Source: Plasmodium brasilianum
Taxonomy: Eukaryota; Apicomplexa; Aconoidasida; Haemosporida; Plasmodiidae
NCBI RefSeq assembly: GCF_023973825.1
Contig: NC_090123.1
Coordinates: 1,967,501-2,031,500, forward strand
Direction: 5' to 3'
Length of the DNA: 64,000 nucleotides
The notes beneath the pieces were generated by a model. That model saw only the letters and a program-made list of their open reading frames with translations, was not told the DNA's origin and ran no database searches. The position numbers and the translations under genes were made by a program. Below, piece after piece: positions 2,051 to 58,760 of this stretch; within the stretch, counting starts at the first letter, position 1; every line of letters begins with the position of its first letter.

Positions 2051-2082
2051 ATTCTCTACATTTTCTATAGTATATAAACTCA
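2051..2082 (+). promoter_or_regulatory. Conserved upstream element of fam-m pseudogene
   Basis: The block ATTCTCTACATTTTCTATAG followed by TATATAAACT lies 385-416 bases before the ATG at 2467. Closely similar pyrimidine-rich blocks lie at the same distance before all other fam-l/fam-m genes in the window, so it is probably part of the promoter or 5' leader. The function is inferred from position and recurrence only. Confidence 0.5.
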
Positions 2083-2466
2083 ATATATATATATTATAAG
2101 AAGCTCCATATTTATTTCTTAATTGTGAATATTATTAATAAAAGAATTATATAATTAATGCACTAGAGTAAAAAAAATTAAATTATATATTTTAAATGTT
2201 TTTGAATCAGTTAAAATTACTCTATTTTATTGAAATTCAGTTTTCTTTTAAGGAACGTTATAATGATAATGAAATAATATATTTTTAAGGTTATTTTACT
2301 TTGTATGTGTGTTAAAGTTTACTATAGTTATATAAATTTTACTAATTATTTAAAAATAATAAATTAAAATTTTTTATTCATATAGCACCCCTTATAATTA
2401 GAAGTATACAATATTATTATTAGTACATTGCATACCGAATATATGGGGATATTGAAAATTTGTAAG

Positions 2467-3314
2467 ATGGAAAATAAAACTAAGTCAATTATTATTATTA
2501 TAATTGCTATGTTTATGCTTAAAACTTGGTATTGTCATTTTTATAATGATACGGTATAATAATATTATTTAATAATATTTGAATTATTCTTATTTTACGT
2601 ATTTTAATATTTTTAATACTATTTTATTCTGTTAAATTATGGATTTTATTAAATAAGAAGTATCTAAAATTTATTTTGTTAAGATATTTTTAACAATTAA
2701 TTGTATGAAAATTGTAACCTTTGTGAAAAGTTATGTCCAGTAAATTATGAATTTCTAGTAGAATATAAACAAACTAAAGATTCATATATTTTGAGTTTAA
2801 AGGATGATATGCTAAATAATGAAGATAAGAAGAAGGAAAAAAACAAATGATCTAATATAAATTTATTAAATAAGGTGCATACTATACAGAAATTGGTGAT
2901 TATAATAGTGGAATATTTGATAGAAAACATTTTCATTTTGAAAAAATGGGGATAAAAAAAAAACATTACTATAATTTTATTGAAAAAAGGAGGAGAATTA
3001 TATATATAAGTTTATAGAAAATAGTATTTAGATGATACGGATTTGGAGTTCCTATTATTTGTCTTTTTATCTTGCTAGGATTAGGATACCCCATATCTCA
3101 TCGTTATAGTGTGGTGGAAGGAATAAGGGGGAAACTCGTAGAATTACTTCCAGTATTTTATGATGACCTCGATAAGGTATTAAAGGTTTGTGAAATGAGT
3201 ATAATATTATATAGTGTAGTCATCGTTATTTTATCAATTATACTTACAGTAGTGATTTATACGATCTTAAGAAATAATGAAAAATATCAAAAAATTAAAT
3301 ATAGGAATAGGTAA
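2467..3314 (+). pseudogene. fam-m exported protein, pseudogene
   Basis: Decayed two-exon fam-m gene. Exon 1 (2467-2553, 29 codons, MENKTKSIIIIIIAMFMLKT...) is intact and hydrophobic and ends before a GTATAA donor. Exon 2 aligns end to end with the intact fam-m at 19084: the YYTE..DYN...FD.KHFHFEK core, the RYGFG-like entry to span 1, and the ILRNNEKYQKIK tail are all visible. It is broken by TAA at 2698-2700, TGA at 2848-2850, a one-base deletion near 2878, TAG at 3015-3017 and TGA at 3033-3035. The usual TTAG acceptor appears mutated to TTAA near 2680, and the export-motif arginine reads as glutamate (NYEFLVEYK). Only the last 80 codons (from about 3072) remain open. Both flanking conserved blocks are still present. 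I am sure this is a family member and a pseudogene; the name fam-m rather than fam-l is less certain. Confidence 0.85.
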
Positions 3315-3462
3315 AATATAAATCAAGGAATACGTTTCTTTGGGGTAAATGAATCTTTAGTATGAAATGATATCTATAATATCTTTTGTTTTGCGCTTAA
3401 TGAGCATACCTTATTTGTTTACATTTAATAGATGTTTATAATTAAATTAGCCTAAATAATTT

Positions 3463-3500
3463 GTAACAATAAAAAAATATATTCTCTGTTTTTTGCTTAT
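3463..3500 (+). terminator. Conserved 3' block after fam-m pseudogene
   Basis: The block TAACAATAAAAAAATATATTC starts 149 bases after the stop. It contains AATAAA and matches, in position and sequence, the block found after the other family genes. It is a likely 3' UTR or polyadenylation region. Confidence 0.4.
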
Positions 3501-6500
3501 TTAAAAGTTATAAATTTTTTTAATGTGTATTATAATGTATTGCCATAATTTAATGAAACATTATAATTAATATATATATTTATATAGAGAAAATGACTTC
3601 TATGAAATGTTTTATATTTTTTCTATAAAATTTATATATAATAAAACAATATATATAATTGTACTAAATGCTCATGTTATTTTATACTAGAATTATAAAA
3701 AATGATATATTTTGTATTTCAATAAAATACTGTTTAAATTTATTATTTGATAAAACCTTTAATAAAATGTATCATTATTTTTAACTTAAAAACGAATTTG
3801 CATTGTTTTGTATTCATTGTAATGATGTAATAGTATAATTATTTCAAAAAGATATATTCACTATAAAACAACTTTTTTGATAAGTATGTTAAATTATATA
3901 TTTATTAGATTACCGTATTAAAAAGATTTTTTTTATTTTTCGTTTTAATTGTATAAAAGTAATATATAATAAAATAATATCCTTATAATTGTGGTTTATT
4001 TATAATTGTTGAATAACTTATGAATTATAAAAGCTTCAGAATAAAATTTAGGTGTAATGTCATTTAATTCATTTTAATTTTTCATAAATAAGGTGTTAAT
4101 TATATTTTGGAAAATTTAATAAAATATATATTATACTGAAAATTTATAAATAAATAAACTATATAAATATTTTTCTTCTTTATATATTTATAGTATTAGC
4201 ATAATAAATTAAATGTAATATTATATTAATAGATAAATGTTTTATATTGCTTTGGTTTTCTAACTTTGTTTTTCTGTAATAATATATATGTAAATATGTG
4301 TTATACATTTATATAAAAAAAAATTATCATTAAGGTTTATGAAAATAAACATATACTCTTTACAATTATACATTATTATGTAGATGTTTATGCATAAAAT
4401 GTTGTTATATTTTTTGTTTATAAGTGTTTTACTTATAGTGTTAATGTTAATTTAATATGTGTATAAATATATATATTTTATTAATTAACAATTAGTAATA
4501 TTTTTAAATTAATAACTATTATTCCTTGAACAAAATAAAAGTGAAATATGAAATATTTATTTGTATATAATTTATAAGTACAAAATATTGTTTTATTTCT
4601 TACATATTTCTTGATACGTTATATTAAAATGTTATTCTACTTTTTTTATAATATATAATTAATTATATATAAAATGTAAAGTTCTGTATGCGATAGTTTT
4701 GAGAGTAAATTTAATAAATAATTTCATTTATTAAATTTGATTTTTCATAGATTCTCATGAAATTTATTGTACAGTATTAATATATGTTTTAGCTATCATA
4801 ACTGTATACATTTAAAAAGTATCTTTTAATAATTTAAATAATACATGCAAATGTTTATTGTTGTATCTGTATACTTAGTTTCTAGGTGAATATGACCAGT
4901 ATATATTGAAATATTTGCATAGAAAATGTGAATATATTACTTTTATGAATTTAAATAAGAACTGTCTATATATTTTTTTTTATAATATTAAATATTATTA
5001 TATTTTATTAAAATATTTATTTCTATGAATGTAACATGTATGTACATGAATATATATGGACTAATCTTCTGTGGTAACATGCTTTTTCTTTTCTATATTT
5101 CCATATATTATAAGAAATAATTATATTTAGAAACAGAAAGAATTATGTTTTATTTAATACATGATTAATTGGGAACGATCTAAAAATTGAGAAGACCATA
5201 TATTATTATTTGAAATTTTACGGAAATTTTTGCTTTGAAATATATTAAAGTACTTTTGTTTCCTGTATATCATGTTAGGACTATTATTATGTTTACTCTT
5301 ACATTGTTCGCACTAAATTTAAGTACATAATTGTAAAAATATGTATAAATTTTTAACTTTCATTTTGGTTATGCATAATTATAAAAATATTCTGTGAAAT
5401 CGTAAAAGCTGTTAAAAAAGTTTTACATACTTCATATTAATAGTTGGTCAAGAAATAAATTAATAGGTACAATTAAATCCTAGGTGTTGAAGAAAATTGT
5501 AGAAATACAAGGAAATATAAGTTTATTATTAAGGGTAATTTATAGAAAATTTTGAATAATTTTTTGTAATTGTTAAATATTAAAATTCAGTGAAACTAGG
5601 ATAAAATTCATATGCATAGAATGCCATATGTAAAGTCACTTTTGCTTTACTTATTTAACCATTATACGGAATTTACAGAATATATAATTCTAAAAATACT
5701 ATAATTAAGATATTATTATTTATCATATTTATAATTTAAGTAGTCTAATATTTTTTTTTTTTTATGCTTGTTATTCATGATATTTCGCCAAGAGTAATAG
5801 TTATATAAATTTTTTATTTATATTATATGAACGAAAAATTGCTTCTATTATTATTTTTAGTGTATTTAATTTTATTGGATAAAATGCATTATAATAATGC
5901 ACAAACATTATATATTCATCTAAAATATTTTTAAAGTGAAGATAATGTTTTATATTTTATAAAATTCACCATTTAAAAAAAAATAATATATTAAGTAAAG
6001 CAAGTAAGATATTTTAATTAAGAACAAAAAAAAAAAAAAAAATTAGATTTTTTCTATTTTTATTTATAAAGGATTATAATTTAGAAAAATTAGAATAAAG
6101 AAAACAAATATATAAAAAAAAAAATAAATAAATAAATATAAAAATCAGTGAAAAAACGATGTATCTATAGTTACTAAGGTATCAAATAGTAATTTATTTC
6201 ATGTTTTATGAATCTTTATATGTATTCATACTTTTTATTTTTGCATTATATAATAAGCGGATATATATTATATACATATTATATTATGTGCCATTAAAAT
6301 AATATGTATACAGTTAACAACATATAATATTCTGATTAAATAAAAGAATTAACTATAATATATTATAATATAATAAAAAAAAGTTATACATTTAAATTAC
6401 ATTTTTAATAGTATAATTATTTACTTCAGTATTTAAATGTAACAATAAATTTCAGAATATATATTTGATACAATATAGAAAAAAAACTTTTTTTTTTTTA

Positions 6501-7199
6501 TCAATTTTTCTTTTATAAGTTTAAAAATCAGGATTTAGTTCCAACATTGAATTTTTTTCTTCTTTTTATTGCTTATTTCATTCTTTTTTATATATGCACT
6601 TTTGTATATATTTAAATTTCTGTTCATTGTATTATATAGACACTGTTTAATTTTTTAGTTTCTGCAGTCTATATTTTTAGTTTTATTTTTCATTTTATTA
6701 ACTATTTTGGAAATCCTTTCATATGTTTACATATATATATGTGTAATTAGTATAATGTATATATATAAATATATTTTTAAAATTTTCTTTTCTTCAAATT
6801 TTCAGTTTTTCTTTTATCTACATTTTATAATATTATTTTATTTATTTTATTTTTTAGAATTATTATTTCAGAAGATAAGGTTATAAAATAAACAATTATT
6901 AAATATTAATAGTATGACTTTATGAAAAAATTATTAAATCTAAGAAAAAATTGTATTTGAATTTTGTCATTTCAACAAAGTTACTGAATAGTCAATATAT
7001 TAATGAACGGTTATAATAATTGTTTTGATATGTATAATTATAAATGTCAAACTTATTCTGTTTTTTCATGCTTGTGTATTACTTTTAATAGTATCTTTAC
7101 TTATTTACCGATTGTTCTTTTATAAATAAAAAAACATAAAAAAAAGAATAATTGAAGTAGTTAAGAATATGTACATTGTAATAATATGCATATGAAAAT
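3501..7199. other. Gene-free AT-rich stretch
   Basis: No open frame with family similarity or balanced codon use was seen on either strand. Long A or T runs occur near 5750, 6027 and 6485. Confidence 0.5.
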
Positions 7200-9250
7200 A
7201 ATGAAAAATACGAATTCCTTTTTTTATATTACATATATCTATATTAGGAGAACTTATTCTTAGTAAAAAAAAGTTAATTTAAGAAAGGATAGGATGGAAA
7301 ATAAGGAAAACAATGATTGATAAATCTATGAAAATACGCTACGAAAACAAATGAAAATAAGAAAAAAATATAAAAAGAAAAAAATCATAAAGTATGGTAA
7401 TGTATAATAATAAATATATAAGTATAACGCACATTTAAACAAAATTTTTTTTTTTTTTAACATGTTTACCTTTTTAAGGAAGCAATTGATAAGATGTTTT
7501 CTACAATAAAAAGATAAATATTAACATAAATGACAAATGCAAAACGGGCATGAAAGAAAAAAACAAAAAGGAAGTGTAAAAGTTTGAAAATATGTTTTAT
7601 TTTATTTTTACTTTCTTATTTATATATGAAATTGAAAAAACATGAAAATAAATCTATAATTATGTACAATCTTTGGAAATGGTAACATAAGAATTGAAAA
7701 ACATTTTCGAAGAATTTTTATAAGTCATGCTGCTATACTGTACAGATGAATGTGTACTTACGTATGTGCATAAAGATATACACATATATATAGACTTTCC
7801 ATAGAATGATCTATCATTTTACATATATCAACATTTATATATATCTATTACATAGAATGAATATTTGTTTTTATAAGTACTAAAACACTTTAACATATTT
7901 GACAATATCATTAAAAGTATTAAACCAAGAATTATCTCTTCATAAAAGAAGAGAATATTAAAAATTTATAACAAATAAATGAAATTAAATGCATTTTACA
8001 TGGAATGCTTTATCGTTTCCACCTTAATCATTCCATCTATTTCTTATTATGACTGAGCTTCATACGAGCATATGTAAATTTTTTTTGTGTTATCCTCACA
8101 ATAGAAGGCGAGCCAAATAATGAAATTCCATAAGAAATGTACTTTTATGAAGTCACCTATTTGTACATGAACCATTTAAAACAAAGTAAATTGGATAATA
8201 TATTTGTTGTCGGAAAGTAATTTAATGCGTATAAATAAATGAAATAATTTGAGTGCAAAGTTGAGATAATATGTTTGTATATTCATATGAAGTATTATTC
8301 ATAAGTGAATGCTTATTTATGAATATAACTCTAATAAATTATATATACTAGCTTTCTTACATATGATATCATGTTTATATTGAAAAGTCCTCACTGGGAG
8401 TACATATGCGCCTACATGAACACATACGTACATGTACACATGTATATATATACGCACATATGCATATGAACATATATGTACATACATATATATACGCGTA
8501 AATACATATACGAATACATATATGCGCACATATATAAAAACATTTGCATACTAGGTATATATTTATGTGTTTTTACTCACAGTAGGATCTTATGATACCC
8601 CACTGCATATGTATACATGTGAGAGAAAGTTTATGCTTACATCAAAGAATGAGACAAATCATAAAATTCTTATAAATATCAGGGGAGTAGAACACCAATG
8701 CATAAAATATATTGAAGCAGATATTTAACTCAGGGATGTAATTAAAGAAGAGGAGAAGAAAATATATGTTTGATAGATCATCTTAACATGATATTGCTTA
8801 AATTATTTAGATGAACAACAAATTAGTCTCAAAACTAACCAGATTATATCACGTCTAAGTTACATATGTATTTTTTATTACTTTTATTAAAGATTTTTAT
8901 TCAAGGTTTTAATTAGCATATTCGTAGTAAGCACGGAGGAAGTACAAATACGAGTGTAAAAACGGAAAATGAATAAAATGCATGGATATAATGCTGAAAC
9001 AGATATATTATTAATTAGTCGTACTTCTATGTAGGAGAGTTTATATGTAAATGTTGGTGTATATATGAATAAGATGAATTTACATTTAAATTGGACATAT
9101 TTTGAATATTCACTATGCATAAACAAGCATGTAAAGGTATACATTTATAGTAATAAAAAAAAATGAATAAAAAACTTGCACATTCAAATATGAATATAAT
9201 AAATTAAATCATTTGTAACTTAAAAAGAAAAGAAAATTATACTATAATTT
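7200..9250. repeat. Noncoding duplicated block A (less AT-rich)
   Basis: Gene-free block whose sequence is visibly less AT-rich and more complex than its surroundings. It has a diverged counterpart at 47.9-50.3 kb with landmarks in the same order: around 7,700-7,790 (GTCATGCTG..ACTG..., TGTGTAC.TACGTAT) against about 48,640-48,700, and around 8,090-8,140 against about 49,070-49,120. Short open frames here (8317-8529 minus, 8887-9144 minus) are repeat-derived or lack family features and are not called. It may be a decayed gene, a noncoding RNA locus or a structural spacer; the sequence does not decide. Confidence 0.5.
8397..8545. repeat. Degenerate ACATA/TACGCACATATG repeat
   Basis: A run of imperfect short units built from ACATA, TACAT, TATACGC and ACATATG, repeated many times with CpG-containing variants (ATACGCGTA, TATGCGCAC). 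It is the densest alternating purine-pyrimidine tract in the window. A similar but shorter tract lies in the paired block at 48,660-48,780. Confidence 0.7.
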
Positions 9251-12565: not shown

Positions 12566-14130
12566 AGTAGGAGAAAATGAAATGATGTCCCGTTTATAAT
12601 ACATATACTGTTTTCGAAAATAATATTTATCACTAATCTAAATAAGTTTTGCTTTATGCTTAATAAAATAATATTCTTAGAAAAAAGAATTGTATTTTAA
12701 TAAATTTTTTCTTATGGGACCTACATATTATAAAAGTATACACTCATGAACAAAAGTAAAGAAAAATATGTTAAATATTTTTAATAGTACGAATGTTTCT
12801 ACTTTTGATTATTTATAATACTGAATTTTTTGGCGTAATTTAGTACTGTTATACATTGCATAATAATGTATATATATATAAAGATATAAACGTGAAATTG
12901 ATATTTCTCGATATTTACATTATAAATATGTGTTTTATAAGCACAAAATATATATACAATTTGTATCATATGGATTCACATTATGGTAAATATGTAGACG
13001 TTTAATTTAATATTAAAAACACAGTTAATATAACTTTAATAATCTACTGGAGAATTTTATATTTTTAAAAATTATATTTTTTTCTTCTATAGTTTTATGT
13101 GATCATTTGAATTAACTTTTAAAAACATATGTTATACATTAGTTTTATTTTCTTTATATTACGTTTTTCTTCATATAGTAAAATAAAAGCCGTATTTGTT
13201 TTTGTGTTTAAATGTATTTTTTATTTAAAAGTAAACATAACAAGTTATATTTATAGAAAAAATATTATATGAAATATATGTTTTATAACATGATGCTATG
13301 TTTTTTTCAATATATTTTTTTTATTATTCATGTATGAAATTAGAAAACAATAATAATATAATTCTTTTTTAAAGTAGCAATTATTAATATAATATCATCG
13401 TTTTAACAATTCATGAAGAATTATTTTTAAATGTGGATCTTGAAATTTCCTCAGATTACATTTTATCTTACGTATTTGTTGGAGCTACGAACTTTTTTAA
13501 AAAATTACTTGGACAACTGTGAAATATACACAAATAATAAAAAATTATATTTATTTTACTATTGAAATAATTAAACAACTTAATAATATTACCTATAATA
13601 TTCTTATTTAATGTACTTTGTACAAAATTACTCTAAAAATATTTGTATCTTCTTTCTCATATTTCTAATAAATATATATATAACATTGAAAAAATAAGAA
13701 GTAATTTAAAAAAATTCGATAAATTTTTAAACTTTTCTTGCATATATAATAGTATGAATTACATATAATTAAATACTATAACCTGTATTAATTAAATTAA
13801 AAAATTAATGGATTCTTTTATATATTTTTTAATATATGCTTTTGTTGTACGTTAAGTCATATACTATAAATTTGATACTATAAATGCATTATATATCATA
13901 AAATAAAGCGTATGTTTATAAAGGATCTAATGGCATTAATATAAAGTAAATAAAACAGAAAGTTATAAAAAGTATTATTTTCTTAATTTATTATTATATT
14001 GTTATAACAATTAATAATATTATGGGAATAACTAATTTTTCCATAATATAAATGTCATAGTGTTTTAATTATTAATAAGAAAATATCAATTAAGTGAGTA
14101 ATACTTCACTTGATGTAGAGAAAAATGTAT
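12566..14130. other. Gene-free AT-rich stretch
   Basis: No supportable gene or remnant. Sequence is ordinary AT-rich spacer between pseudogene X and the fam-l upstream region. Confidence 0.5.
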
Positions 14131-14192
14131 TATCTATATTCTCTACATTCTATATTCTCTATGTACTCCATACTTCTAAATATTATAAACTC
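14131..14192 (+). promoter_or_regulatory. Conserved upstream element of fam-l
   Basis: TATCTATATTCTCTACATTC, then TATATTCTCT and a TATAAACTC box, 366-427 bases before the ATG at 14558. This is the longest version of the element in the window, with the TATTCTCTA core repeated twice. Confidence 0.55.
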
Positions 14193-14557
14193 ATGTATAT
14201 GATTTTTTATTTGATTTTTTAAATTAATAAAATAATTATTTAATTAGTTTACTATATAAAATAAATAATTTATATATTTTGAATTTTTATTGATGAATTC
14301 AATTTATATCATATTTTGTAAAGTTAAATTGTTATAAATAATATAATATAATATAACAATTTTAGAATATATATTTGAAGTTATATTTTTTTTTCTCCCT
14401 TGTAAAACAAATTGCGGTTAAATAATATTTGTTATGATTTTATGAAAAAAAAAAACTAATTAAATAATAATAATAGAGTTCTATATGATTAAAACTATAT
14501 TATGTTATTGTTAATTATATCGTTTCTCAATTTATTACTGTATTAAATACTTATATT

Positions 14558-15563
14558 ATGGAACAAAAAATTAAGTCACTCTTATTTATTAAAATTGCTA
14601 CATTTAACCTTTTTATTTGGATATGTTATTTTTGCATTTTCACAGTATGATATAATTATTTAAGGATATTTGTGCTATTTTTATTTTTCGTGCTTTATTT
14701 TTATTAGTTCTTTTATTTTATATTAATTCATTCTTTTAAAGGATAATTATTTTTTTATTTTTTCTTAGAGTACGTTTAACAAATCTTTGGATGAATGCTA
14801 CAAACATAGTAGAAAATTGTATACAATAAATTATCGTTTACTAGCAAAATATGAACATGATAACGATTCAATTATTGTTCGTTTAAAAGAAGGGATACAG
14901 AATGGAGTGCATGATAGAAGAGATAAATCTAGAAGTGGAATATTTAGTGATGAAAAAAAGAAAAAGCCAAATGGAGGTTCACCTAGGATTGAAAGAAGCC
15001 ATAAAAAATATATGAAAAATAAATATCATATATTTGAAACAAAAAAATTGTCTTATTTAGAAAAAAAAATATTCAAAGAACTAGATTATGAAGATTTTCT
15101 AAAAAACAACAGGACATTTAGTGATAAGGTTTATAAAAAAATAATATTTAAAAAATGCGGATTGCGAGTTGCTTTGCCTTTATTAGTATTTTTGGTGTTA
15201 TCATTATCATACATATTAGATAAGTTTTGGGGATATGGACTTACATCTGCTTTGTATAATGTAATACTTATTTTTTCACCTGTTCAACAAATAAGTATTG
15301 CACCTGGGAATTCAATAAAAATATCTTCGGCCATAAAAGATTTACATGATTTTTTGAATAAACCATCTTTACAATGGTTCACACAAATTTTATTAGAAAA
15401 CACAGTGACAAAAAAGATAGCAAATTTTTGTGTGACAGGATTTTTGGGATTTCTAATATATTTTGTGCCTTTATTCATATTAAGTATAATGCTTATATCA
15501 GCGGTTGTTTATTATCATAAAAAAGTTAAAAAATATGAAAAAATTAAGTTCAGGAAAAGGTAA
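14558..15563 (+). CDS. fam-l exported protein (two-exon, intact)
   Basis: Exons 14558-14644 and 14769-15563; intron 124 bases with GT..AG and phase 0; 293 residues. Exon 1 (MEQKIKSLLFIKIATFNLFI...) is a recessed hydrophobic signal. YRLLAKYE follows, with the export-type arginine at residue 52; it fits R-x-L but has K rather than E/Q/D at position five. A lysine-rich variable stretch leads to the conserved block HIFETKKLSYLEKKIFKELD / LKNNRTFSDKVYKK, then span 1 (about 163-179), a variable extracellular-type loop, span 2 (about 254-277) and a basic tail YYHKKVKKYEKIKFRKR. Family knowledge: P. malariae fam-l/fam-m proteins are predicted to be exported to the host red cell and have been modelled with an RH5-like fold; molecular function is unknown. 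Its partner fam-m follows 3.5 kb downstream on the same strand. No damage is visible. Confidence 0.9.
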
Positions 15564-15775: not shown

Positions 15776-18660
15776 CATTTTATGTTAGGTTTCATCTAAA
15801 TTGAATATTTTGGGTTATATATATTTATGTATCTCCATTTATTACTATAAAAAAATTATACTTGTGCTTAAGAATTAATATGATGTAACATAATTTATAT
15901 ACTTTTATTGATGTCTTGTGCTAATTTATATTTTAATTATTAATAATACTTCTTTACATTTTTTTATCTTTTTATAGTCTAAAAATATTATTTGTTGATG
16001 AATTTAGAAAAAATTTTATTAGGATTTAATTAAAAAAAAATATATCTCGTTTTGTATCTAATAGTACGAAATGAATGTACTTTATTGTATTGATGTATAT
16101 ATTATATATATTAAAACTTAAGATCTATTACATAAAATAAGTTTTATAAGAAATATGTCATAGAAAAATTTCAGAGTAAAGCCATTTTCAATGGATTTTT
16201 ATTTTTTTTTTAAATAATGTAAAAAATAAAATATAAATATAATATATCATTATTAAATTTAGGGTACTATAATAGTTCAATAATTTCATAATTCTAAATA
16301 TTTACAATTAAATAGAGAGTTACCATGATTTCGAGTTTTGTTATTTTAATTAATTGTGCTGTTAATTCAATATAGTAAAAATTCAAATAAATATACATTA
16401 TATTGAAAATTTATAATTAAATATTTGTATGTATTTTATATTTTTTACATAGTTTTATGTATAAATCAATGAATTAATAGTAATCGAATACTGATAAAAC
16501 AATATGCATAAATCATTTTTTTTTTTCATAGGAATAAAACTTAATAAACATTTATATCTATGTCAAAAAAATACATTATCAGTAGGGATAATGAAAAAGT
16601 ATATAATTTGTTTACATACATATAATAATGCATCTACCTTTTTTTATATATTTTTCATCATTTTTTATGTTTATTAATATATTATGTAAATAGTTAAAAT
16701 TATATTATAGATGTATACAAATGCATATAATTTATATTGAATATATCAAATTAATTTATATTAATAATACTTTTTTTTTAAACAAAATGTAATTTAAATG
16801 AAAGGAATTATTTTTTTATAAATGATTTTTGAGTGTATTACTTTTTTTTTTTTTATTACATAGGTGTCCTTTAGGTATATTAACGAAAGTTTTGTATTTT
16901 TTTGTAAATGTTTTAATTAAATATTTGTTGTTTAATATTATAAATGATGGATAATCTTTAATTTTTGATAAATAAAAAAATGCACTACAGTTTACATTGT
17001 AAGCCTAGAAATATGTTAAGTACATTTTAGACAATAATATAGAATGATAAAAAATTACTCTAAGCGCTTGTAGATTTGAAAACCTTATCAACTAAAAATA
17101 CTGCATATTAATATAAATAATAGATATATAAAATGGGTTTGCAGAAGAAAATGTTGGATCTACAGATGAATAAAATAATCATATGGTATCAACACGAATA
17201 TGTATATATGGGAACAATAAACATATGGTTTATATATTAAAAAAGGTGAAAAATATATTTTTTATAAGGATATTTATGTATTTCTATATTATTTCTTAAT
17301 TTGGAAAGAACATAAAAAATTTAGAAAAATATAGTATGTTTAATTAAAAAAAAAGGCACAAATATTTTGAAATCACAAATGTTAATAAAATGACAAAATT
17401 CTATTTGTAAGTAATATTATAGCAGAATTATATTACGTAGTTTGTTTGTTTTTTGTAATTAATTTTATAATATACATATATATCTGTATTATTTAATATT
17501 TTAAAACTCTTATGTCATATTTTTAATATAAAAACCAAGCTATGAGATAATACATTTAAAGATCTAATCATTGTAAGATATAAAAGTACCTAAATAAGAG
17601 TACATGTAGTTATTGGGTAAATGCATGAATATTTTAAAATTATAAGAATGCAGTAATATTAATATCTGTAATGTTTTCAATTTTTTTAGTTATTTATTTA
17701 TTCACTAATAGGAATAAAATACTTTTAAAAGAAAAATATTAATATGTTATATTTCAGATGATTACAATAATTCTCTTGGAGTATTATGTTTTAATAATTA
17801 GTATTATTGTTGGGATACAAATCATAAGGAATATATATATTTGAATATAATATATTATTGTACCTATATATACTTTAAATATAGTATTTACTGTTTATAT
17901 ACATGTCTATATATTATAGAAAACATTTAAAAATTATTTTTGACTTCAAGTATTTTAAAAGGAATTAATAAAAAATAATATTATTTTTCTATATATAACT
18001 ATGGTAAAATTAATATATCATAAAATTAACTATATTATATTGTTGTTCTTTCTTATCTGTTATGTATATATTGTTCTCCATATGTATCATACTTTTTTTA
18101 TAACTTCATATAAAATATAATTAATGCGAATGTAGTAATATTTTTGTAACAGTTTTTTCATTAATCAATTTTTTTCCTTTCCTTTTTTTTTTTTTTTTTT
18201 ATTATATTAACAATTCCACTAATTATATAAGTAATTAAAAAGAGCTTATATAATTTAATAGATAAATATAAAGCATTTTAATTTAGAAATAATGATATAG
18301 ATTAATATTAAATAAAAACTGTAAATCCCAAAAACTATGGTATAAAAATAAAAAATCAATTTGTATTTTCTTTTAAAATATGTAATTTTTCATAAATTAG
18401 GTATTCTCATATAAATACTACATTTTAAAAGCTTTATATACAATAAAATATTGTGCTTAAGGTGGAACTATTACACGTGCTATAATTAATGTAATACAAA
18501 ATATTGTTTCACTACTTTTGCATTATTATTAACAAGTTATAGTAGTATTTTATTTTAAAGAACAATTTTTTCGAAAATGCAAAGTTTGCATAATTTTAAT
18601 TATTAATAGTACATCTTTAAAACTAGTAATTATTATTTTATTATATAGATTTATATATTG
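15776..18660. other. Spacer between fam-l and fam-m of doublet A
   Basis: No gene supported. Around 17,030-17,220 the sequence is slightly less AT-rich, with short purine-rich pieces (GGGTTTGCAGAAGAAAATG), but stops occur in all frames within a few tens of codons. Confidence 0.45.
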
Positions 18661-18692
18661 CATATATATTCTCTATATTCTATATACTACAA
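18661..18692 (+). promoter_or_regulatory. Conserved upstream element of fam-m
   Basis: CATATATATTCTCTATATTC followed by TATATACTAC, 392-423 bases before the ATG at 19084. Further conserved pieces follow nearer the gene: TTTAATTAGTGCACTA at about 18,773 and a TTATTTCACTTTGTATATGT block at about 18,900, the latter shared with the fam-m copies at 2.3 and 59.0 kb. Confidence 0.55.
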
Positions 18693-19083
18693 AAACTAAA
18701 TATGCACTTAAATAAGAATTTACACGTTAATTTCTTAGTTTATACTTAAAGTATATAATAAGATTATTATTTAATTAGTGCACTACATTAAATAAAAAAT
18801 AAATTCTAAATATTTATAAATCAATTCAAAATATTTTATTTTAATAATAATTGTTTTTTAAATAACATTATGAAAATAATTATATGATATGTTTTAAAAG
18901 TTATTTCACTTTGTATATGTGATAAAATCCATTATAGCTATATAAAATTTACTATGTATTTATGAAGGAATAATAAATATAAAAGTTTTAAAAAAATATT
19001 ACATCCTTTGTTATCAGATGCATACTGTACTATAATTAATCTTTTTATTTTTGCATTAATTAAAAATATTTATTATCTATATA

Positions 19084-30118: not shown

Positions 30119-30953
30119 ATGAAACAGAATTATAAGTCTCTCTCTTTTATTAAAATTGTGGCTTTTACCCTTTAAATTTCTATATAGCCTTATAACTATA
30201 ATATGGTATTATAATAATGTTTCATTTTATTGTTTAATTGTTTTTTTTTGTTTTTGCTTCATATTTTATTTTTTGAAAATAATATTTTCTTGCTATGGAA
30301 ACATCATCATTGTAAATAATAAATGTTTAAATTTTTACTCATAGAACTGTTGTGAAAAATTGTTGGATAATAAGTATAAGCTAGAACGTTACCTAGATTT
30401 AACATCTAATTGAATACTAGCATATATTTTAGTAAAAGCGAAATATAATAAATTTATATATAAAATTAACGATAGCACAGAATCAGAAAGGACAAAATTA
30501 AAAAATTGCTTATTAAATATGAAGGAACTAGATGAAGTAGCTCAGAAAAAGAATCATTTTTTACTAAATAGAATAGATACATTCTTTGAAAAACAAAATA
30601 TTTAATCTATTAGATTCTATATATAAATTATGAATACCGAAAATATTAGTAATAGGACCACATGAATGATTATATGTAGAAAGATAGCTTTAAGAGTTAC
30701 TACAACTCTATTAGTTTTATTGACTGTGTTAGCAGTAGTCTTAATATCATTTTGTGTAATTTTTATGTTTGCTTCTTTGAATAAAAACGCTGTTTAGAGC
30801 TATGTATTTTATGTTTTCATAGCACTAGTGATATATTCATTATTTATTGTATTATTGGCTGTTTTCATTGTATTAAGTATTGTTTATACATTAAAAAAAA
30901 TTGAAAAATATAAAATGATAAAAGCGAATAATCTCAAAATTTGCTTTAGTTAG
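30119..30953 (+). pseudogene. fam-l-like two-span exported protein, pseudogene
   Basis: Exon 1 is 30119-30205: exactly 29 codons, MKQNYKSLSFIKIVAFTL, with TAA at 30173-30175 and TAG at 30185-30187. Exon 2 is 30345-30953: 202 codons plus stop with no net frameshift, so only nonsense changes have accumulated. One of them, TGA at 30411-30413, sits at residue 52 where intact relatives have the export-motif arginine, and is followed by ILA; this fits a CGA to TGA change. Further stops occur near 30,600, 30,627, 30,663 and in the loop at NKNAV. The membrane part IICRKIALRVTTTLLVLLTV resembles the fam-l span 1 region; span 2 (IALVIYSLFIVLLAVFIVLS) and the tail YTLKKIEKYKMIKANN follow. The middle (ELDEVAQKKNHFLLNRIDTF) differs from both fam-l and fam-m, so this may be a separate subfamily. 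It lacks a clear upstream element. Confidence 0.75.
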
Positions 30954-38400: not shown

Positions 38401-40710
38401 TTCTACAGATCGAGTAAAATAGTATTTAAAAACACATATTTGTAAATACAGCATTATTATAGCTGTAATTCATTGTCTTAATTAATTAAAGAGTATGTAG
38501 GAGAGCATCATTATTTTTAATTAAAATAATTTATAGTTTTAGAAAAAGAAATAATATGTAAAATAATATAGTAAATGTTTATGCAATTACTGGAAATTAG
38601 TAGATGAACTCTTGCTAAGTATTACTCGAATATATTTCTCGTGGGTATATAACTCATGTGAAGATCTTATAGGAAATGAGATTCATTGAAATTCAGGAAC
38701 TTCGCGTATCAAGTTAAGAAATTTTAAAAATAGTCAATTTTTGCAGTCGTTTAATTTTTTTGAGTATTATATTTGAAGATTTAAATTTTTTTACAAACAT
38801 TATTGCTTTTTTGTGTAATACATGTATATATAATTTATCATGTAATCAATCTTATTGACTTCCAGCCTGTAACGACAGCATATATTGGCTAAAAATTGAG
38901 AACTCTTTAAAAATAGTGAAGAAAATAATTTTTATTAAAATTATACAAAAAAAAAAAAATTTTCAGCAGTTTTTCCTTCTTGTAAAACAAAAAATATAGA
39001 TATACTTTAGTAAATTATAGATGCATCCACATAAAAGATATATTTCGTTGTACAAAAATTGAGCATTTAAATGAACATGTTATTGTTGTATGTATTTTAC
39101 TATATAGCTAGTGTAAATATAAAAATAATGTTTTGAAGATTAATATTATTTTATATTTAACTAATTATATTGTTATATATTAAATCCCAATAATATTTTT
39201 TATTAAATATAATATACACAATATAAAAAATATCTAAAATTTATATATATATATATATATGACACAATTTACTTATTGTGGATATATTTAATGAGGAGAT
39301 AAATAAATTTATAAAGGAAATAAAAATATTTATATTTTATTTATTATTTCAAAATAAAAAATAAATAATTTTGAAAGAACATAGGTTTATATTTTAAATA
39401 AAAATTAAGAAAAAATGAATGTTGCTAAAATTTTAAAGGCTTATTTGTAAATAAAATTTTAGAATGTCTTTACTATAAAATACAATCGTATTACCTAATT
39501 CATTTTATAATTTATACGTATATTATTATGAATATTTAAATTAATTTGAAATACAAATTATATATAAATATTAATTGTTCATAAAAACGTGAAACGAACA
39601 ATTGCGTGGTATCCAAAAAGAAACTAAGAACAGGGATGTATAAATACTATCTCTGGTATTGTATATTTGTTAAAACAATGAAAATATAATAACGGTAGTT
39701 TTTGTAAATATATTATTTCTGTAATTTATAAATGTATTTAAAATTTCGCAATATTTTTCTCTTTTTTAATTATTTCAGTGGATCATATATCTATATACGA
39801 ATAACAACATAAAATTATATCTAAGATGATTACATTAATTTTAGGTATATAATTTTTATAATTATGATATTATTATATATAAAATATAAAAATAAAAATA
39901 TTTGGTTATAATTTATTTTTGTTGCTAAAAGTATTTTTAATAAAATATTAATTATCTATATATTTATGTCAATGTATTAAGCTGCATGTCTGAAACATAT
40001 TCCCAACAGTATTTTTAAAAGAATAAATAAAAGATAATATATTTTTTGTGAAATTCTAAGTAAAAAAATTAGTAAATCACGTATTATAGTATATTATGTT
40101 GACATTTGTTTTAAATTGTTAGTACATGTTGTATTCTGAATATTATTTGTGAATTTATTTCGTTTGTCATATTTTCAAATTAAAGAAATTATATATAATA
40201 TTTCTACACTATTATTTATTTTAATCTCTTTTTATGTTTTTACAATTTATTAATATTAATTTTAAATATATATAATTAATTAAAAAAAAATTAAAAATAT
40301 TTGTAGATAAATGTATCGAATTTTAATTTAAATATAACATTATAAATTAAACATAATTGAAACATGTAATTTTCAAAAATTATGATATCAAAATAAACAA
40401 TAAGTCTTTATTTGCTTTTAGAATCATATTTCTTTTGTATTACCTAGTTCAATGTAAATTTTACTCTTAAAAAATTATACTTAATAAAGTATTGCATATA
40501 CTTAAAGGCGAATTAATGTATTTGTTATAATTAACATAACATGATGAATTTTTTTTTATTATTAACATTATTATATTGTAATAATTAATAGTTATTTAAA
40601 AATAATAGTTTTTCCAAAGTACAAAGTTTATAAAATTAGAATTATTAATATAACAATAATGTTAATGTTTGTAGTGATTATCATAATAGATAGAGGAATA
40701 TATAATATGT
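35488..40710. other. Gene-free stretch
   Basis: No gene called. At about 38,590-38,740 a minus-strand frame with balanced composition (REVPEFQ, stop, ISFPIRSSHELYTHEKYIRV) may be a short remnant. A second less AT-rich patch is near 38,860-38,910. The rest is ordinary AT-rich spacer. Confidence 0.4.
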
Positions 40711-40740
40711 TATATATGTTCTACATTCTATATAGTAGAT
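40711..40740 (+). promoter_or_regulatory. Conserved upstream element of fam-m
   Basis: TATATATGTTCTACATTCTA followed by TATAGTAGAT, 391-420 bases before the ATG at 41131. A TTTAATTAGTGAACTATATT block follows near 40,822, as in other copies. Confidence 0.5.
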
Positions 40741-41130
40741 AGGCTTAACATTTGTATATAACAAGAAATTACATATTTATCTCTTAGTTTATTCTGAAAA
40801 TAATTAATATAAATATCATTTAATTAGTGAACTATATTAAATAATTAAATTATATATTTTAAATATTCTTGAAAGTATTCAAATCATTATTTCTTTAAAT
40901 AACCTTATGATAAATATTACATACTATATTTTTACGTTGATTTTTCTTTGTAGTTGACGCAAAGTAAAATGTAGTGATATTTATTTTTTTTATTTTTTAA
41001 GAGAAAAAATAATAATAACAAAAAAAATATTTAATGAATTGTTACAGTATCGTTTTCCGTAAAAATCATATTATATTATTTATAATCATTTTTTTTTTTT
41101 TAATATATTAGAATATTAAAATTCTAAATA

Positions 41131-43842: not shown

Positions 43843-44430
43843 GTAAACATATATTTCTAAAAGCTGATAAATTTTAAGGAAAAATATTTGCAAACATATA
43901 TTAAAAAAATAATTGTAATAACATAAAATGTTAAAAAATAATAACTTTATTTTTTTTTAATATTTATTTATTTTATATTTTATTATATAATATTAACATA
44001 TATTCTAAATATATACATTTTATTAAAAAGGAAAAAATTAATTTAGTATTTAAAAATATATTATTTACAAATCATTATATGCATTAATCATCATTAAAGA
44101 TAATTAATTCCAAAAATTGTCATTAAAAAAGAAAAAATTTACAACTTATTTACCATTAAAACATAAATTTTTTTGTAGAATATATAGTATGAAATAAATT
44201 CAATTTTTTAAATGTATTATTGAACTTTAATGAATGAAAATATTTTATTTAATATATTATATAATACTTTAAAAAATATGGTTATACTCATTCATCTTTA
44301 TTATTATTGTAATAATTAATATAATTTACTAATCATATCCTGTTTTTCTAATATATTTTTATTATAAAATTATAATAATAAATAAACATTCATAAAAATA
44401 GTTATAATTACTTCAGAATAGAGAACAGTG

Positions 44431-44462
44431 CATTATCTGTATTCTATATATTCTATATAGTA
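44431..44462 (+). promoter_or_regulatory. Conserved upstream element of fam-l
   Basis: CATTATCTGTATTCTATATA followed by TTCTATATAG, 424-455 bases before the ATG at 44886. A TAAACTCAAT box follows, as upstream of the pseudogene at 2467. Confidence 0.5.
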
Positions 44463-44885
44463 AACATTGATGATTCTGCATAAACTCAATATTTAGAAAT
44501 ATTAAGTAGTTTTTATTAGTTTTTATATTTTCTTTTTAAAAATTTTTACAGACATAGTTATTTAATTACCATATTTTAATAAATAATTTAATTATATATT
44601 CTGAATATTTATGAATGAATTCAAAATATTTTGTTTTAACTGAAAATAGTGATATAAAAATAAGATTAGTATTAATATTGTATAATATATAATTCAATTT
44701 ATTTTTCTTTGTAATTGTTGTCAAAAACATTATATATATACACTTTTTCATATTTTTAAGGAAAAATAAAAAATAATAAAAAACAAAATTAAATATATAA
44801 TAAATTATCCTTTGTCATTAAGTGTACACTATACTATTGTAATTTATTGTTTACGGAATATATTACAGTATTAATAATTTATGTT

Positions 44886-45852: not shown

Positions 45853-45998
45853 AGACGAGCAATAAGTATTATACTTCTTTTTATAATTAAATAATTAAAA
45901 AATTGTTATATATAATATTATTAGTGATATATATCATAAACATATCTATAATTGCTTAAATTTTATTAATATTCCCAGACATACATGTTCTACTTTAT

Positions 45999-46065
45999 GC
46001 ACAAAAGTAATAACTATTCATAACATTTAGTGAATTTGAAGGTTTTAGTATTTTTCAATTTGCAT
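45999..46065 (+). terminator. Conserved 3' block after fam-l
   Basis: CACAAAAGTAATAACTATTC and then TAGTGAATTTGAAGGTTTTA, beginning 147 bases after the stop. The core AATAAA is altered here (AGTAATAA). Confidence 0.4.
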
Positions 46066-52875: not shown

Positions 52876-53495
52876 AATTGTCCACATGGTATATTACAAG
52901 AAATGATATATTATTATCTGAACATGAGAAGGTAGTAATTAACATAGAAGTGAAGATATATTGTTTGAAAATGGATATGACAATTAAAACAATTAACATG
53001 ATGATTTTCAATCAGAATATGTTGGAAAGTTTTAGTTTAATGATAATAATAATTCAAGAATTGCAATCAAAAAAATTAATTAAGAAATGATTATCTGTTA
53101 GATATAATCCATTATCTGTAACATACATATTTATTTTTAAAAAATTATTGCATATGGGTTCTACTGCTGTATATACAGATAAGAAATATTCTGATACTTT
53201 CCAAAAAAATAAGTTTAAAAGATTAATTATTTATAAGCATCACTTTATTACTTACTCAATGGGAATACTTTCCTTTATAATATTTTTATTACTTTATTTA
53301 TTTCTTATTGCATTGAAAAATTCTTTATGGATGATGGAAGAAATGCTAAGACTATTCTTTATTTCTGAGAGGGGAATTACAAATGCATTATTATTAATTA
53401 TATAATTAACTATTTTAGTGTTAATTTATATTCTGGTAAATTTCTTAAAATAAATTAATGAATAGAAAGAAATAAAATTGACTTGTCATAATTAA
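52876..53495 (+). pseudogene. Decayed two-span exported protein 'X', copy B
   Basis: Exon 2 begins after an AG at 52874-52875 and reads NCPHGILQEMIYYYLNMRR then several stops, matching copy A (LVQQLIYYYHKMRKNK). An 85-codon open piece at 53148-53405 contains span 1 (about ITYSMGILSFIIFLLLYLFL) and the short loop NSLWMMEEMLRLFFISERGI. Span 2 crosses a stop (LLLII, stop, LTILVLIYILVNFLK) and ends in a broken tail (INE, stop, KEIKL) that resembles the NEKYEKIKL tail of fam-m. So X is plausibly a diverged relative of the fam-l/fam-m superfamily. It is more decayed than copy A in its first half and better preserved in its membrane half. Confidence 0.6.
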
Positions 53496-55031
53496 TATAT
53501 TGAAATAAGAAATAATGTTCTTGATGTATCCAATGAACTTTTACTTTATACTTAATGAAATTGATCTAAAACAAAATTAATTGTTGTATATTTATAATTT
53601 TTTTTTTGTGCAACCTGGATATTATATAAAGGTATATTGATACAGAAAAGTAAAAAAATATATATTTAATATTTTTTATAGTTAGTATATTTCTATATTA
53701 GATATTTTATTATAATTTGTTGTTTTTAAATAGTTTAGTAACTTGACTTAATATATATATCTAGAATATCTTCCTTGATTCTTAAAAATATGATATTAAC
53801 TTTGCTATATATTCCCTATAAATATAAAGGCTTTATATTGAAAATTTATTAGTGTATATGATTCTTGTATATTTGTATTATAATAAATGTGTGATCGTTT
53901 AATATAATATATAAAATCAAAATTATTATAACTTCATTCATATAATGAAATTATTTATATATTTAACAATTTTTTTTTCTTTCTTGTTGTTTATAAAAGA
54001 TCATTTGAATAATTTTTTAAAAAGTTTTATTATATATTACTTTTAATTTTAACGTTGTTCTCCATTTAATGAATATAAAATCATTTTGTTTTGTCTTTGT
54101 ATATGTTGTTTATTTAAACGTAAAAATCAAATTATTTTTTAAAAAAACATTTTTTGGAACAAATGTTTATTATCTCATTTAATGTAGGAATTTTTAATAT
54201 ATCTTTATATTATTTTTATAGTTAATTTATCAAATTATAAGTAAATGATAATGTGATTCTCTTTTAAATAATTAATTATTAATAAAGTATTATCAAGTTT
54301 ATAATTGCTAAATATTTGCACTAAGTGAAATGCTTAAAGAACATATCATATTTTACTTTTTATCTAATGCAAAAATTATAGTACAAAATTTTTTATAAGA
54401 ATTACTTAAACATCAATTAAAAAATACACGGATAAAAAATTGTATATTAATTTTCATTCTCCAATCAGTTAATTTAATATATTGTTTAATAAATACACGT
54501 CTTATATTAATATATTTAGTATAAGAGTTACCCTATCCTTCATATATTTATTGTTTTTTTAATATCATTATTCTAAATATATATATCAATATAAAATAAA
54601 AAAAATGAAAGTAATTTTATAATTTTACAAACTTTTATTTGGAAATAACAATGTCAATTTTATTAAATTAAGTACTATAACCTTCATGAACTATATTATA
54701 AATATAAAGGTTCAGTCTTTATTTACCTTTGAAATATATACTTTTTTTAATAAATTAAGAGATATGTTATAAATTAGATACTTAATGTATATTTCAGATC
54801 ATAAGATAATTATTTTATTTAAGTAGTAACTAATGTCAGTAATATTAATTAAATCAAATAAAATATTTTAATATTATAGTATACATTATTTTTATTACAT
54901 TGTTACTATTATTAATACTTTTTGAAGAATAATAAGATTTTTTTAAATATAATTTTTATAATGTTGGAATTTTTAGTAGAAAGATGTCATTATAATAAGT
55001 AATTTATCTCTTAATATGTAGAACATTGTGT
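53496..55031. other. Gene-free AT-rich stretch
   Basis: No gene or recognisable remnant. It corresponds in position to 12.6-14.1 kb in the other copy of the duplication. Confidence 0.5.
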
Positions 55032-55068
55032 TACCTATCTTCTCCATGTTCTATATTCTATATATATT
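55032..55068 (+). promoter_or_regulatory. Conserved upstream element of fam-l
   Basis: TACCTATCTTCTCCATGTTC followed by TATATTCTATATATA, 390-426 bases before the ATG at 55458. The core differs by a few bases (TTCTCCATG for TTCTCTACA). Confidence 0.5.
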
Positions 55069-55457
55069 CAATGTTTTGAACTATTAAAAAGTCATATATA
55101 TTTTTATTTTATTTTGAAAAGTATAAATAAAAGAAAATATTTATTTATTATTCTAAATTAAATATATAATTCATATATTTTTAATATCTATTAATAAATT
55201 TAGTTTATAGTATTTTAACTAAAGTTATTTTGTTATAAATAACATTAAAATAAAAATTTTGTAGTTTACATTTGAAGTTATTTTTAAAAGCATCATTATA
55301 AAAAAAAATAAAGATATATAATTTTATTATTATTTTACAGAAAAATAAAAAATAATACGAAATAATATAAATAATAATAGTTCCCTTTATCACTATATGA
55401 ATATTATATTATTGTTATATTTTTTCTTAGTATATTACATTTTAAAACTTTTATACG

Positions 55458-56479
55458 ATGAAGCAAAAAATTAATATTTTATTATTTATTAAATTTACTA
55501 CGTTTATCCTTTTATGTTGTATATGTCATTTTTACATTCATGTGGTATATTATTATTATTTAGTGATATTTTTGTTATTCGTACTTTTCGTGCTGTATTT
55601 TTATTAATTCTATTTTTTCACCACTGAACAATTTATTATAATATATAACTATATGGGAATTTTATTGTTTTTTAGAGTACTCTTAAGCTATTGTTAGAGG
55701 AAAATTGCAATAATTGTAAAAAATTTCCTGCAAGAAATTATCGTTTACTGTCAAAATACAAGAAGAATTGTGATTCAAATGCTTTATGTTTAAAAGAGGA
55801 ATTGCCAACTAAAGGATTTTCCCCCCCAAATGATATATCTACTAATAAGAAGGATAAATTAGAAAAAAACAAAAAAAAAAATGGATGTTCATCAATGATT
55901 GTAGGAGATTATAAACCAGATGTGAAAAACAAAACTTGTATATTTGAAACGAAAGAATATTCCAATTTAGAAAAAAAAATATTCAAGGAACTTGATTATA
56001 CGAATTTTCTTAAAAATAACAGGACTATTAGCAATAAGGTTTACAGAAAATTAATATGTAAAAAATATGGATTACGCATTATTTTACCTGTATTATTCTT
56101 TTTGTTTTTATTAATAATATTTATATTAGAAGTAGCACTGGGATATGTAGGAAAAACTAGTTTATTGTATGTATTAGGTTTAAACAAGGTTAATTTAACA
56201 TCCTTGTCCAGCCAAGAACCATGGAAATACATTATAGAAGCGTTGAAAAAGACAGATTTCCTTAAGCACGCTATAGAAACTGGAGTTTCCCCCCAGAGAG
56301 TATGTGAACTTTGTAGTAGTGCAAAAGAAGTTAGTGATATCTGTATTTTAGGACAATTTTTTCGCATTTTAATATATTTTGTACCTTTCATTATAATGAG
56401 CATAACCATAATATCACGAATTATTTATTACCATAAAAAAGTTAAAAAATATGAAAAAATTAAATTAAGGAAAAGATAA
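55458..56479 (+). CDS. fam-l exported protein (two-exon, intact)
   Basis: Exons 55458-55544 and 55676-56479; intron 131 bases, phase 0; 296 residues. Exon 1 is MKQKINILLFIKFTTFILLC... ARNYRLLSKYKKN has the export-motif arginine at residue 52, with K in the fifth position. Core: TCIFETKEYSNLEKKIFKEL / LKNNRTISNKVYRK. Span 1 is at about 163-181; the long loop includes cysteines (VCELCSSAKEVSDIC) not present in the other two fam-l copies; span 2 is at about 258-280; tail YYHKKVKKYEKIKLRKR. It is the positional counterpart of the gene at 14558 in the duplicated segment, but the loops of the two are no longer alike. The downstream fam-m partner (59163) carries a nonsense codon, so this gene may have lost its pair. 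Predicted exported protein, function unknown. Confidence 0.9.
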
Positions 56480-56627
56480 AACACATACTAAAGAATATTT
56501 TTTTTTCTGTAAAAATATCTAGAATATGAACTAATTAATGAAATATATATAAACATATACTTAATAAACATATGAAAAATTCCTTAAAATTTTACAAAAA
56601 TTTATAAGTATACATTGCTTTTTTTAT

Positions 56628-56695
56628 GAACAATAATAAATGTATATGCTCTTAGTTTGTTTGTGAATAAGAATATTCTAATATTTTTCTATTTG
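56628..56695 (+). terminator. Conserved 3' block after fam-l
   Basis: GAACAATAATAAATGTATAT and then TTGTGAATAAGAATATTCTA, beginning 149 bases after the stop; AATAAA is present. Confidence 0.45.
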
Positions 56696-58726
56696 TGTAT
56701 CAAAATATGATTTCATATTAATTGTATATTATAACTTAAAGCATATAATTTTGCATTTTAATGATTTCTTATGATCATAAAATATTTTTACGTTATAATT
56801 AATTAACAATATAACATTATGTATAATTTTATTAGTAATATTTGCTAATTTATATTTAACTATAAAGAATACAGACTTTTATTTTTATATTTCTTTGTGC
56901 TCTAAAATAATAATATGTTCGAGAAATTAAAAAAATATAGATTTACTATAAATTACGTATAAATGTGTTCTTATTTGTGTTTCATAAAAGGAAGTTAACA
57001 TATTATATTATACTGATATATATATATATTATATTTACTAACAAATAAGCATAACTTATTTTTTTTAAATATGCTTATTGATATACATGTTATAGAAGAA
57101 TATTATTTAAAAGTCTTTTTAACAATGATTTAGTATTTTTTGTAAGATCTAAATATAAAATTAAGAATATATAAGAAAATAAAATATTTATTAAATACTG
57201 TTTATTTATATTTGTTTAATTACTTAGTTTTTCTACTTAATCACAATTATATAGAGATAAAAAATTCTTTTGCTGAATTATTGTTCGAACATAGGATGTT
57301 AATTCAATTTTTTAAAATTAATTATATATATATTATAAAGAAAATTTATAAATAAATAAATATATATATTTTTTTATATCTTTAAATAATTAAATTATTG
57401 AACTATATATAATCATATTTTAATAGATAATATATTGAAATATTATTAGGTAGTTACTTTTTATTTTTTCATAATAATAGACCTATATATAAGAATTACG
57501 ATGTTAGTTCAGTATAATGGAAATAAATGTATTGTTTTCTGTAAAGATATAATTATATATGAATAAATTATATTTATATACGCTACTATTTATTCTTAAC
57601 TATAAATATATTAAGGGATAATATTGATTTATATATATATAAGAACATACATAGATTATGTTGGTAATGTCTAATTCATTTTATTTTCAAAGTTAATTTT
57701 TTATGTAAAATTTAATTAAAAAAAAGCATAGTTTTTTAGTACTTAATTCATAAATATAAAACATAGTTTTTTTGATAGATATTGTTTACTAAATTATATT
57801 TGTTTCACTTTTTTATTTTTTCTTTAAATTTTTAATTAAATAAGTATTATCTACAATGTTTTCTATGCACCTGTTTTGTAAATAATTTAAATCTATAAAA
57901 TTTGATTTTGTAAAAATTGAATTAATAACTATACTAAAATATTAGCAGATGTTTTAGTTGTAACAATAAGATATTAAGAATTACTCTTTATTCAATTAAA
58001 GAAAACATAAACAATTTTGTTTTTTAACGAACGCTTAAAACCTGCAGAACATGAGACTAGAATATGTAAACATCTGGGAATTGAAATATCGGAAATATTG
58101 ATTATACTATTTTAACAAAAGAATGAATTATTTTTATTATCTTTTTTTTTTTGTTTTTTTAATATTATGTGTTTATATAATTTATTAAAATGTTTATTTA
58201 ATGTATGGAATATGTTATATGTAAAGATAGACGAAGTAATTATACCTTGACAATATGTTTTTTTTTTTTCTTTTTATGGAACTATATTAATATTTTTTCT
58301 AAATCTATATATCAAAAAAATATAATAAAAAAAAATTATGTTTATGTGTAAAAAGATTTTTCATATAGAAATAATGGTATAAACTGAATTTAATTAAAAA
58401 TTATTGTACAAAAGTATAATATGTGTTTCTATTTTCCTTTAAAATATATATTATTTGATATATCGTGTAATAGCAAATATTTTCAATTTTTTTATTATAT
58501 GCTATATTATAAAAAATTTTATGTGCATCTGAATTATATAAATTATGTGCTATGTTTAACACGATTCAAAATATTAATTCATTAATATATTATTACTATT
58601 ATTATAATAATTATTATTTATAAGTATAAAAAATAGGTCCTACCATATATTGTTTATAACTTTAGAATTTTTAGTAAGAAATATCCTTATGATTTGTACT
58701 TATTGTATAAATATATTGAACTGTAT
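56696..58726. other. Spacer between fam-l and fam-m of doublet C
   Basis: No gene supported. A less AT-rich patch at about 58,020-58,110 (CCTGCAGAACATGAGACTAG) has no open frame of useful length. Confidence 0.5.
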
Positions 58727-58760
58727 ATTATCTATATTCTCTATGATCTATATTACATTC
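58727..58760 (+). promoter_or_regulatory. Conserved upstream element of fam-m
   Basis: ATTATCTATATTCTCTATGA followed by TCTATATTACATTC, 403-436 bases before the ATG at 59163. A TTTCACTTTTTATATATTTT block near 58,983 matches the fam-m copies at 2.3 and 18.9 kb. Confidence 0.5.

Follow-up and report, generated by a model that had tools for sequence, protein, structure and literature searches.

A putative cis-regulatory element shared by the fam-l and fam-m genes of Plasmodium brasilianum

Plasmodium brasilianum is a malaria parasite of monkeys and humans. It is hard to culture, and to our knowledge the control of its fam-l and fam-m genes is for that reason unstudied. Among the lineage-specific families of P. 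malariae and P. brasilianum these are the largest, with 213 fam-l and 157 fam-m annotated genes (PMC9671904). They occur in telomere-facing doublets, and a role at the surface of the red cell has been proposed for them (Rutledge et al., 2017; PMC5326575). In a stretch of 64,000 nucleotides of P. brasilianum contig NC_090123.1, hereafter the window, a short pyrimidine-rich element recurs before seven genes of these two kinds. The question raised by this locus is whether the element marks a transcription start, serves as a binding site or has merely been copied along with the genes. The best reading of the sequence comparisons is that it represents a selected, pyrimidine-rich cis-element that would make both families one regulon.

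The element and the genes it precedes

The element is a block of ∼59 bases, with a core, TATATTCTCTACATTCTATA, situated ∼420 bases before the ATG. The initial annotation described it as pyrimidine-rich and often doubled. In the core TATATTCTCTACATTCTATATTCT, ATTC units follow one another at spacings of 9 and then 7 bases. When the sequence is compared with itself at a lag of 9 bases, the match is 0.545 in the element vs 0.386 and 0.406 in the flanks, and TATTC density is 28 per kb vs 2.0 and 2.4. A third ATTC unit is found in 15/25 fam-l vs 7/25 fam-m genes (p 0.045, a difference noticed after looking).

Exon 2 places were collected independently of the motif and comprise at least 145 of the fam-l type and at least 150 of the fam-m type (at least 295 in total). 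The sample drawn from them consists of 66 genes: six intact genes in the window and 60 from fetched stretches that were selected for the presence of fam-l/fam-m genes, not for the motif. A short conserved signal-peptide exon fixes the ATG in 57 of the 66; the other nine are without a confident exon 1. Removal of seven near-duplicates left 50 upstream regions (25 fam-l, 25 fam-m), which were aligned and are also the basis of a 59-column matrix. Each aligned gene was left out in turn when scored.

The matrix detects the element at all seven places listed in the initial annotation of the window, with scores of 25.5–68.7 bits. Six of the seven genes are among those from which the matrix was built; when left out, they score 18.6 to 66.6. 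Elements (59-column block) and the genes that follow them are:

2032..2090, + strand: element; core start 2048, ATG 2467, distance 419; 55.7 bits
2467-3311, + strand: disrupted fam-l/fam-m-like gene; exon 2 in three pieces
14119..14177, + strand: element; core start 14135, distance 423; 68.7 bits, left-out 66.6
ATG 14558, exon 2 from 14769, + strand: fam-l gene
18649..18707, + strand: element; core start 18665, distance 419; 29.5 bits, left-out 25.6
ATG 19084, exon 2 from 19300, + strand: fam-m gene
40697..40755, + strand: element; core start 40713, distance 418; 25.5 bits, left-out 18.6
ATG 41131, exon 2 from 41350, + strand: fam-m-type gene by our own hidden Markov model (HMM)
44422..44480, + strand: element; core start 44438, distance 448; 27.5 bits, left-out 26.7
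ATG 44886, exon 2 from 45100, + strand: fam-l-type gene by own HMM
55020..55078, + strand: element; core start 55036, distance 422; 55.5 bits, left-out 48.8
ATG 55458, exon 2 from 55676, + strand: fam-l-type gene by own HMM
58717..58775, + strand: element; core start 58733, distance 430; 44.5 bits, left-out 40.2
ATG 59163, exon 2 from 59373, + strand: fam-m-type gene; stop in exon 1

Apart from these, the sole match in the window to exceed the 8-bit print threshold is at 44438, in an overlapping register. On the − strand of the window no match exceeds 8 bits; the minus-strand pseudogene of the initial annotation was not separately located. A literal 20-mer with up to three mismatches finds five of the seven sites (2044, 14131, 18661, 44434 and 58729) vs 0.18 expected, and none of 100 shuffles reaches five; the more diverged sites at 40711 and 55032 are missed. 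Core-to-ATG distances in the window, 418–448 bases, are tighter than the 370–450 stated initially, and the distances in the 50 non-redundant genes have a median of 421, with quartiles at 417 and 427 and extremes of 342 and 481.

All six intact exon 2 frames of the window match PF12420 (Fam-L, Fam-M like) at 168 to 240 bits, with a cut-off of 34. The frames at 14769 and 19300 are 100% identical to a P. brasilianum fam-l and a P. brasilianum fam-m database protein, respectively, and the ATGs at 14558 and 19084 are the starts of the matching proteins. The disrupted gene (window 2032-3311, three frames) still keeps a strong copy of the element, at 55.7 bits. The pseudogene at 30.1 kb, from which the element was said to be absent, is a relic at 30.1–30.95 kb that indeed has neither the element nor the longer upstream unit described below. 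This relic (30121-30950) is a degenerate fam-l/fam-m relative with exon 1 and the last transmembrane part still recognisable.

Across the sample, matches above 14 bits are present on the sense strand of 57/66 fam-l/fam-m upstream regions (29/32 fam-l-type, 28/34 fam-m-type) and on the antisense strand of 0/66. As initially stated for pir, the element is not seen before the pir genes sampled: none of 20 upstream regions exceeds 14 bits, the best being 5.9, in a comparison limited to pir, with STP1, PHIST and other families outside it. These 20 were chosen among at least 110 matches, with 1.5 kb counted back from the domain match and not from the ATG; one pir upstream region scores 13.0 bits with a matrix made from fam-m only. 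In the composition control, 1 Mb of order-4 simulated sequence peaks at 1.1 bits. The proposed sharing by the two classes is evident from matrices made from one class alone, either of which detects the element in the other. The fam-m-only matrix exceeds 10 bits in 28/32 fam-l genes, with the best match in place in 32/32; at the same threshold the fam-l-only matrix scores 27/34 fam-m genes, with the best match in place in 31/34. Over the 600 bases upstream, the 18 most enriched 8-mers centre on −402 to −420.

A scan of loci covered the window and 60 fetched loci (334,723 bases), with fam-l/fam-m exon 2 found by our own HMMs. Each of the 61 matches that exceed 10 bits is followed by a fam-l/fam-m exon 2, a figure that denotes no stray matches in loci chosen for fam-l/fam-m or pir and is not genome-wide; 61 of 69 fam-l/fam-m loci carry such a match. 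In the genome searched (31,374,054 bases, 43 contigs), the 20-mer with up to three mismatches has 475 matches vs 78 for the reversed pattern, and a 17-mer, ATTCTCTACATTCTATA, with up to one mismatch has 122 vs 1. Among the 100 listed of the 475 20-mer places, 84 lie 575–776 bases before a listed exon 2 and 16 are unmapped; the corresponding figures for the 100 listed of the 122 17-mer places are 84, at 581–769 bases, and 16. One 17-mer place is in the chromosome interior. Loci picked by the motif precede a fam-l-type exon 2 in 8/8 cases, and a BLAST search of the genome with one 101-base copy gives 40 matches, not mapped individually.

An upstream region common to both families

The element is not an isolated motif; it lies where conservation peaks within a ∼0.9 kb upstream region common to both families. 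A profile of this region matches 68/69 loci, the exception being the relic, at 30.8 kb. For three of 76 profile matches no exon 2 is visible; all three are at the ends of fetched stretches, and one of them is weak. The copies in the window, with nhmmer E values and positions in the 925-position model, are:

1588..2463, + strand: shared upstream unit, copy 1; E 8.7e-119, model 2-922
13655..14556, + strand: copy 2; E 1.1e-135, model 15-924
18193..19082, + strand: copy 3; E 2.5e-132, model 2-924
40238..41126, + strand: copy 4; E 8.7e-127, model 4-921
43981..44882, + strand: copy 5; E 1.2e-111, model 4-922
54552..55455, + strand: copy 6; E 9.1e-124, model 9-923
58275..59158, + strand: copy 7; E 3.3e-116, model 4-921

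Between 40 and 480 bases upstream of the core, aligned segments have a mean identity of 0.608 vs 0.437 when shuffled; further out the values are 0.485 vs 0.427. Homology fades over ∼20–40 bases at a poly-T tract near −890, where identity is 0.58–0.66 inside and 0.40–0.51 outside, except for the outermost bin at 0.56. The left edge of the unit is sharp, with A-rich sequence after a poly-T tract ∼890 bases before the ATG, and may mark either the limit of a promoter or a breakpoint of duplication. In their upstream sequences, fam-m genes are 0.643 identical to one another and fam-l genes 0.653, with 0.626 between the two classes; some columns are class-specific (lowest p 3.7e-7 in 4012 tests). 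As ∼0.9 kb of upstream sequence matches at 68/69 loci and homology ends near −890, the sharing of the element across both families appears best explained by descent.

Descent also bears on the near-fixed spacing, which was initially taken as a mechanistic sign. That argument is not supported: adjoining stretches keep their length equally well, with a median absolute deviation of 3, 2 and 3 bases in three successive ∼140-base stretches of the upstream region. The spacing can be attributed to shared ancestry and few insertions or deletions. It might be supposed that the block has no function at all, having merely been duplicated along with the genes and the rest of their upstream sequence and owing its conservation to the recency of that duplication, since the ∼0.9 kb homology in both classes could alone yield the recurrence and the spacing. 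This is improbable, however, as in the same gene pairs the core differs less than its neighbours. In 77 close pairs, a 20-column core window named beforehand is the most alike of 50 windows, at 0.84 vs ∼0.71 typically. In addition, G or C is present in at least 65% of genes at eight upstream columns, of which four fall in the block. The only three with C at that frequency are all in the block, although the region is at least 80% A + T. The gap-opening rate is lowest in the core among 15 bins wholly upstream of the ATG. Core identity in close pairs, the G/C columns and the scarcity of gap openings point to purifying selection on the block, which is fairly but not overwhelmingly supported. The block stands before most family members and before 0/20 pir genes and is conserved beyond its surroundings, if by a small margin in plain identity; it can be termed a family-specific upstream element.

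Transcription start, RNA and splice signals

The initial annotation proposed either a transcription start region or a specific factor site. Transcription starts in P. falciparum have T enriched upstream and A downstream (PMC7278070), a criterion that is borrowed from another species and is indirect. The average T-to-A score is 1.06 at about −875, 1.06 at −120, 1.03 at −20 and 0.75 at the core. In 90% of the 50 genes a second strong T-to-A step falls between −112 and −166; it represents a candidate start site. With the steps at −875 and −120 and not at the core, transcription is more likely to start before or after the element than at the element itself. The first part of the proposal is not supported. 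A factor site fits the conservation, the few gaps and the 9/7 repeat structure of the core.

The same scores make it rather unlikely that the element is a core promoter, i.e. a transcription start region or a TATA/initiator-like part with a 5′ leader of ∼400 bases. A leader of this length falls within the Plasmodium range, with a published mean of 577 in P. falciparum and a median of 754 in P. vivax; the pyrimidine-rich element is followed by TATATAAACTC in the consensus, and G + C content drops to 12–13% downstream. The T-to-A step is nevertheless strong elsewhere, and P. falciparum starts are described as often broad and multiple, which does not predict one sharp motif.

The strongest T-to-A step coincides with the homology edge at about −890. 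A start near −875 would place the element in the 5′ leader, where it might act on mRNA stability or translation. The strict orientation of the element fits such a role but is equally expected from ancestry, and no conserved fold is found by RNAalifold (energy 0.0, for both the block and the block plus 94 columns). An RNA-level element is thus unlikely. A structured RNA in particular was rejected on the basis of the RNAalifold energy and the lack of a match to the element in Rfam.

A leader-intron splice signal, in the form of a polypyrimidine tract, is highly improbable. Although the element is pyrimidine-rich on the sense strand, no upstream G column is near-invariant, as GT/AG would need; the highest is 0.80 at −442, on which ground the candidate was rejected.

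Proposed regulation of a superfamily

The evidence somewhat favours a conserved site that regulates the fam-l/fam-m superfamily in cis, bound in the likeliest case by one sequence-specific protein. Several observations weigh against it. The close pairs lack independence, and identity elsewhere in the upstream region reaches 0.80, the next best value. By composition-blind identity over the 50 genes, the core is at 0.761 vs 0.751 for the next noncoding window, which is A + T only. Eight of the 69 loci have no 10-bit match, with a diverged or gapped version aligned in four (L013, L015, L016 and L027). Genes A_L015, A_L016 and B_L027 look intact despite a weak element, such that the element tolerates large change. 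Loss in disrupted genes (2/5 vs 6/64 others) is not significant (p 0.10). The ApiAP2 words that were tried gave no match except TCTACA; this is found in 18/50 upstream regions vs 4.9 expected, but it is part of the motif itself, and any link to a factor is conjectural.

Weighed together, the element is probably a docking site for a regulator of both families. Both probably arose from one ancestral two-exon gene, with each copy retaining the ancestral ∼0.9 kb upstream region, the homology of which is observed and the descent presumed. Within this region, the ∼59-base block has changed more slowly in sequence and length than its surroundings. A single DNA-binding protein with sequence specificity, plausibly an ApiAP2 factor, would contact the repeated units and would control the timing or the silencing of all superfamily members jointly. 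For the choice of single members or doublets, an additional layer would be required.

It had also been suggested that the shared element allows the two partners of a doublet to be expressed together. The data do not favour this as a property of pairs: the element precedes most members of both families, and partner copies are no more alike than others. Block similarity in 16 partner pairs is 0.657 vs 0.654 in non-partners (p 0.97), and whole-upstream similarity is 0.624 vs 0.627; a doublet-specific code was rejected on these grounds. The element can permit joint control of the whole superfamily, with no sign of pair-specific control, as partner similarity is not above that of non-partners. At least 95 neighbouring fam-l/fam-m pairs lie within 7 kb; fam-l is first in 65/95 and fam-m in 30/95 of the neighbouring pairs listed (p 0.0004).

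In P. falciparum, var genes are grouped in promoter classes by the upsA/B/C scheme. The fam-l/fam-m element is similar to var ups types in that upstream regions are common to a gene family; it differs in that one upstream type is common to two separate protein families, separate promoter classes not having been looked for. Arrays of SPE2 precede upsB var genes and are bound by PfSIP2 (PMC2829057). Like SPE2, the element is subtelomeric, family-specific, sense-oriented, short and repeated, and precedes genes for exported proteins. SPE2, however, is a bipartite GTGCA-type site in arrays ∼2.2 kb upstream, whereas the element consists of ATTC-type units in one block at 0.42 kb. An SPE2/GTGCA-type site was rejected, as GTGCA is found in 5/50 upstream regions (1.9 expected) and outside the block consensus.

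A description of the element was not found in the full-text literature, including fam-l/fam-m papers, with subscription journals and preprints outside this scope and novelty thus unproven. In the accessible portions of fam-l/fam-m papers, 'promoter' is absent or denotes transgene promoters. Rutledge et al. (2017; PMC5326575) describe the same families; 'promoter' is absent from the portion available and the sole 'upstream' there concerns P. ovale hypnozoite genes.

It is possible, and tentatively proposed, that the superfamily is switched or silenced as a whole in the malariae lineage, and that heterodimer partners are supplied together because both keep the ancestral site. The short element and the defined 0.9 kb unit may be used as bait in an in vitro search for the regulator, and they offer a handle on whether the proposed partners are controlled together.

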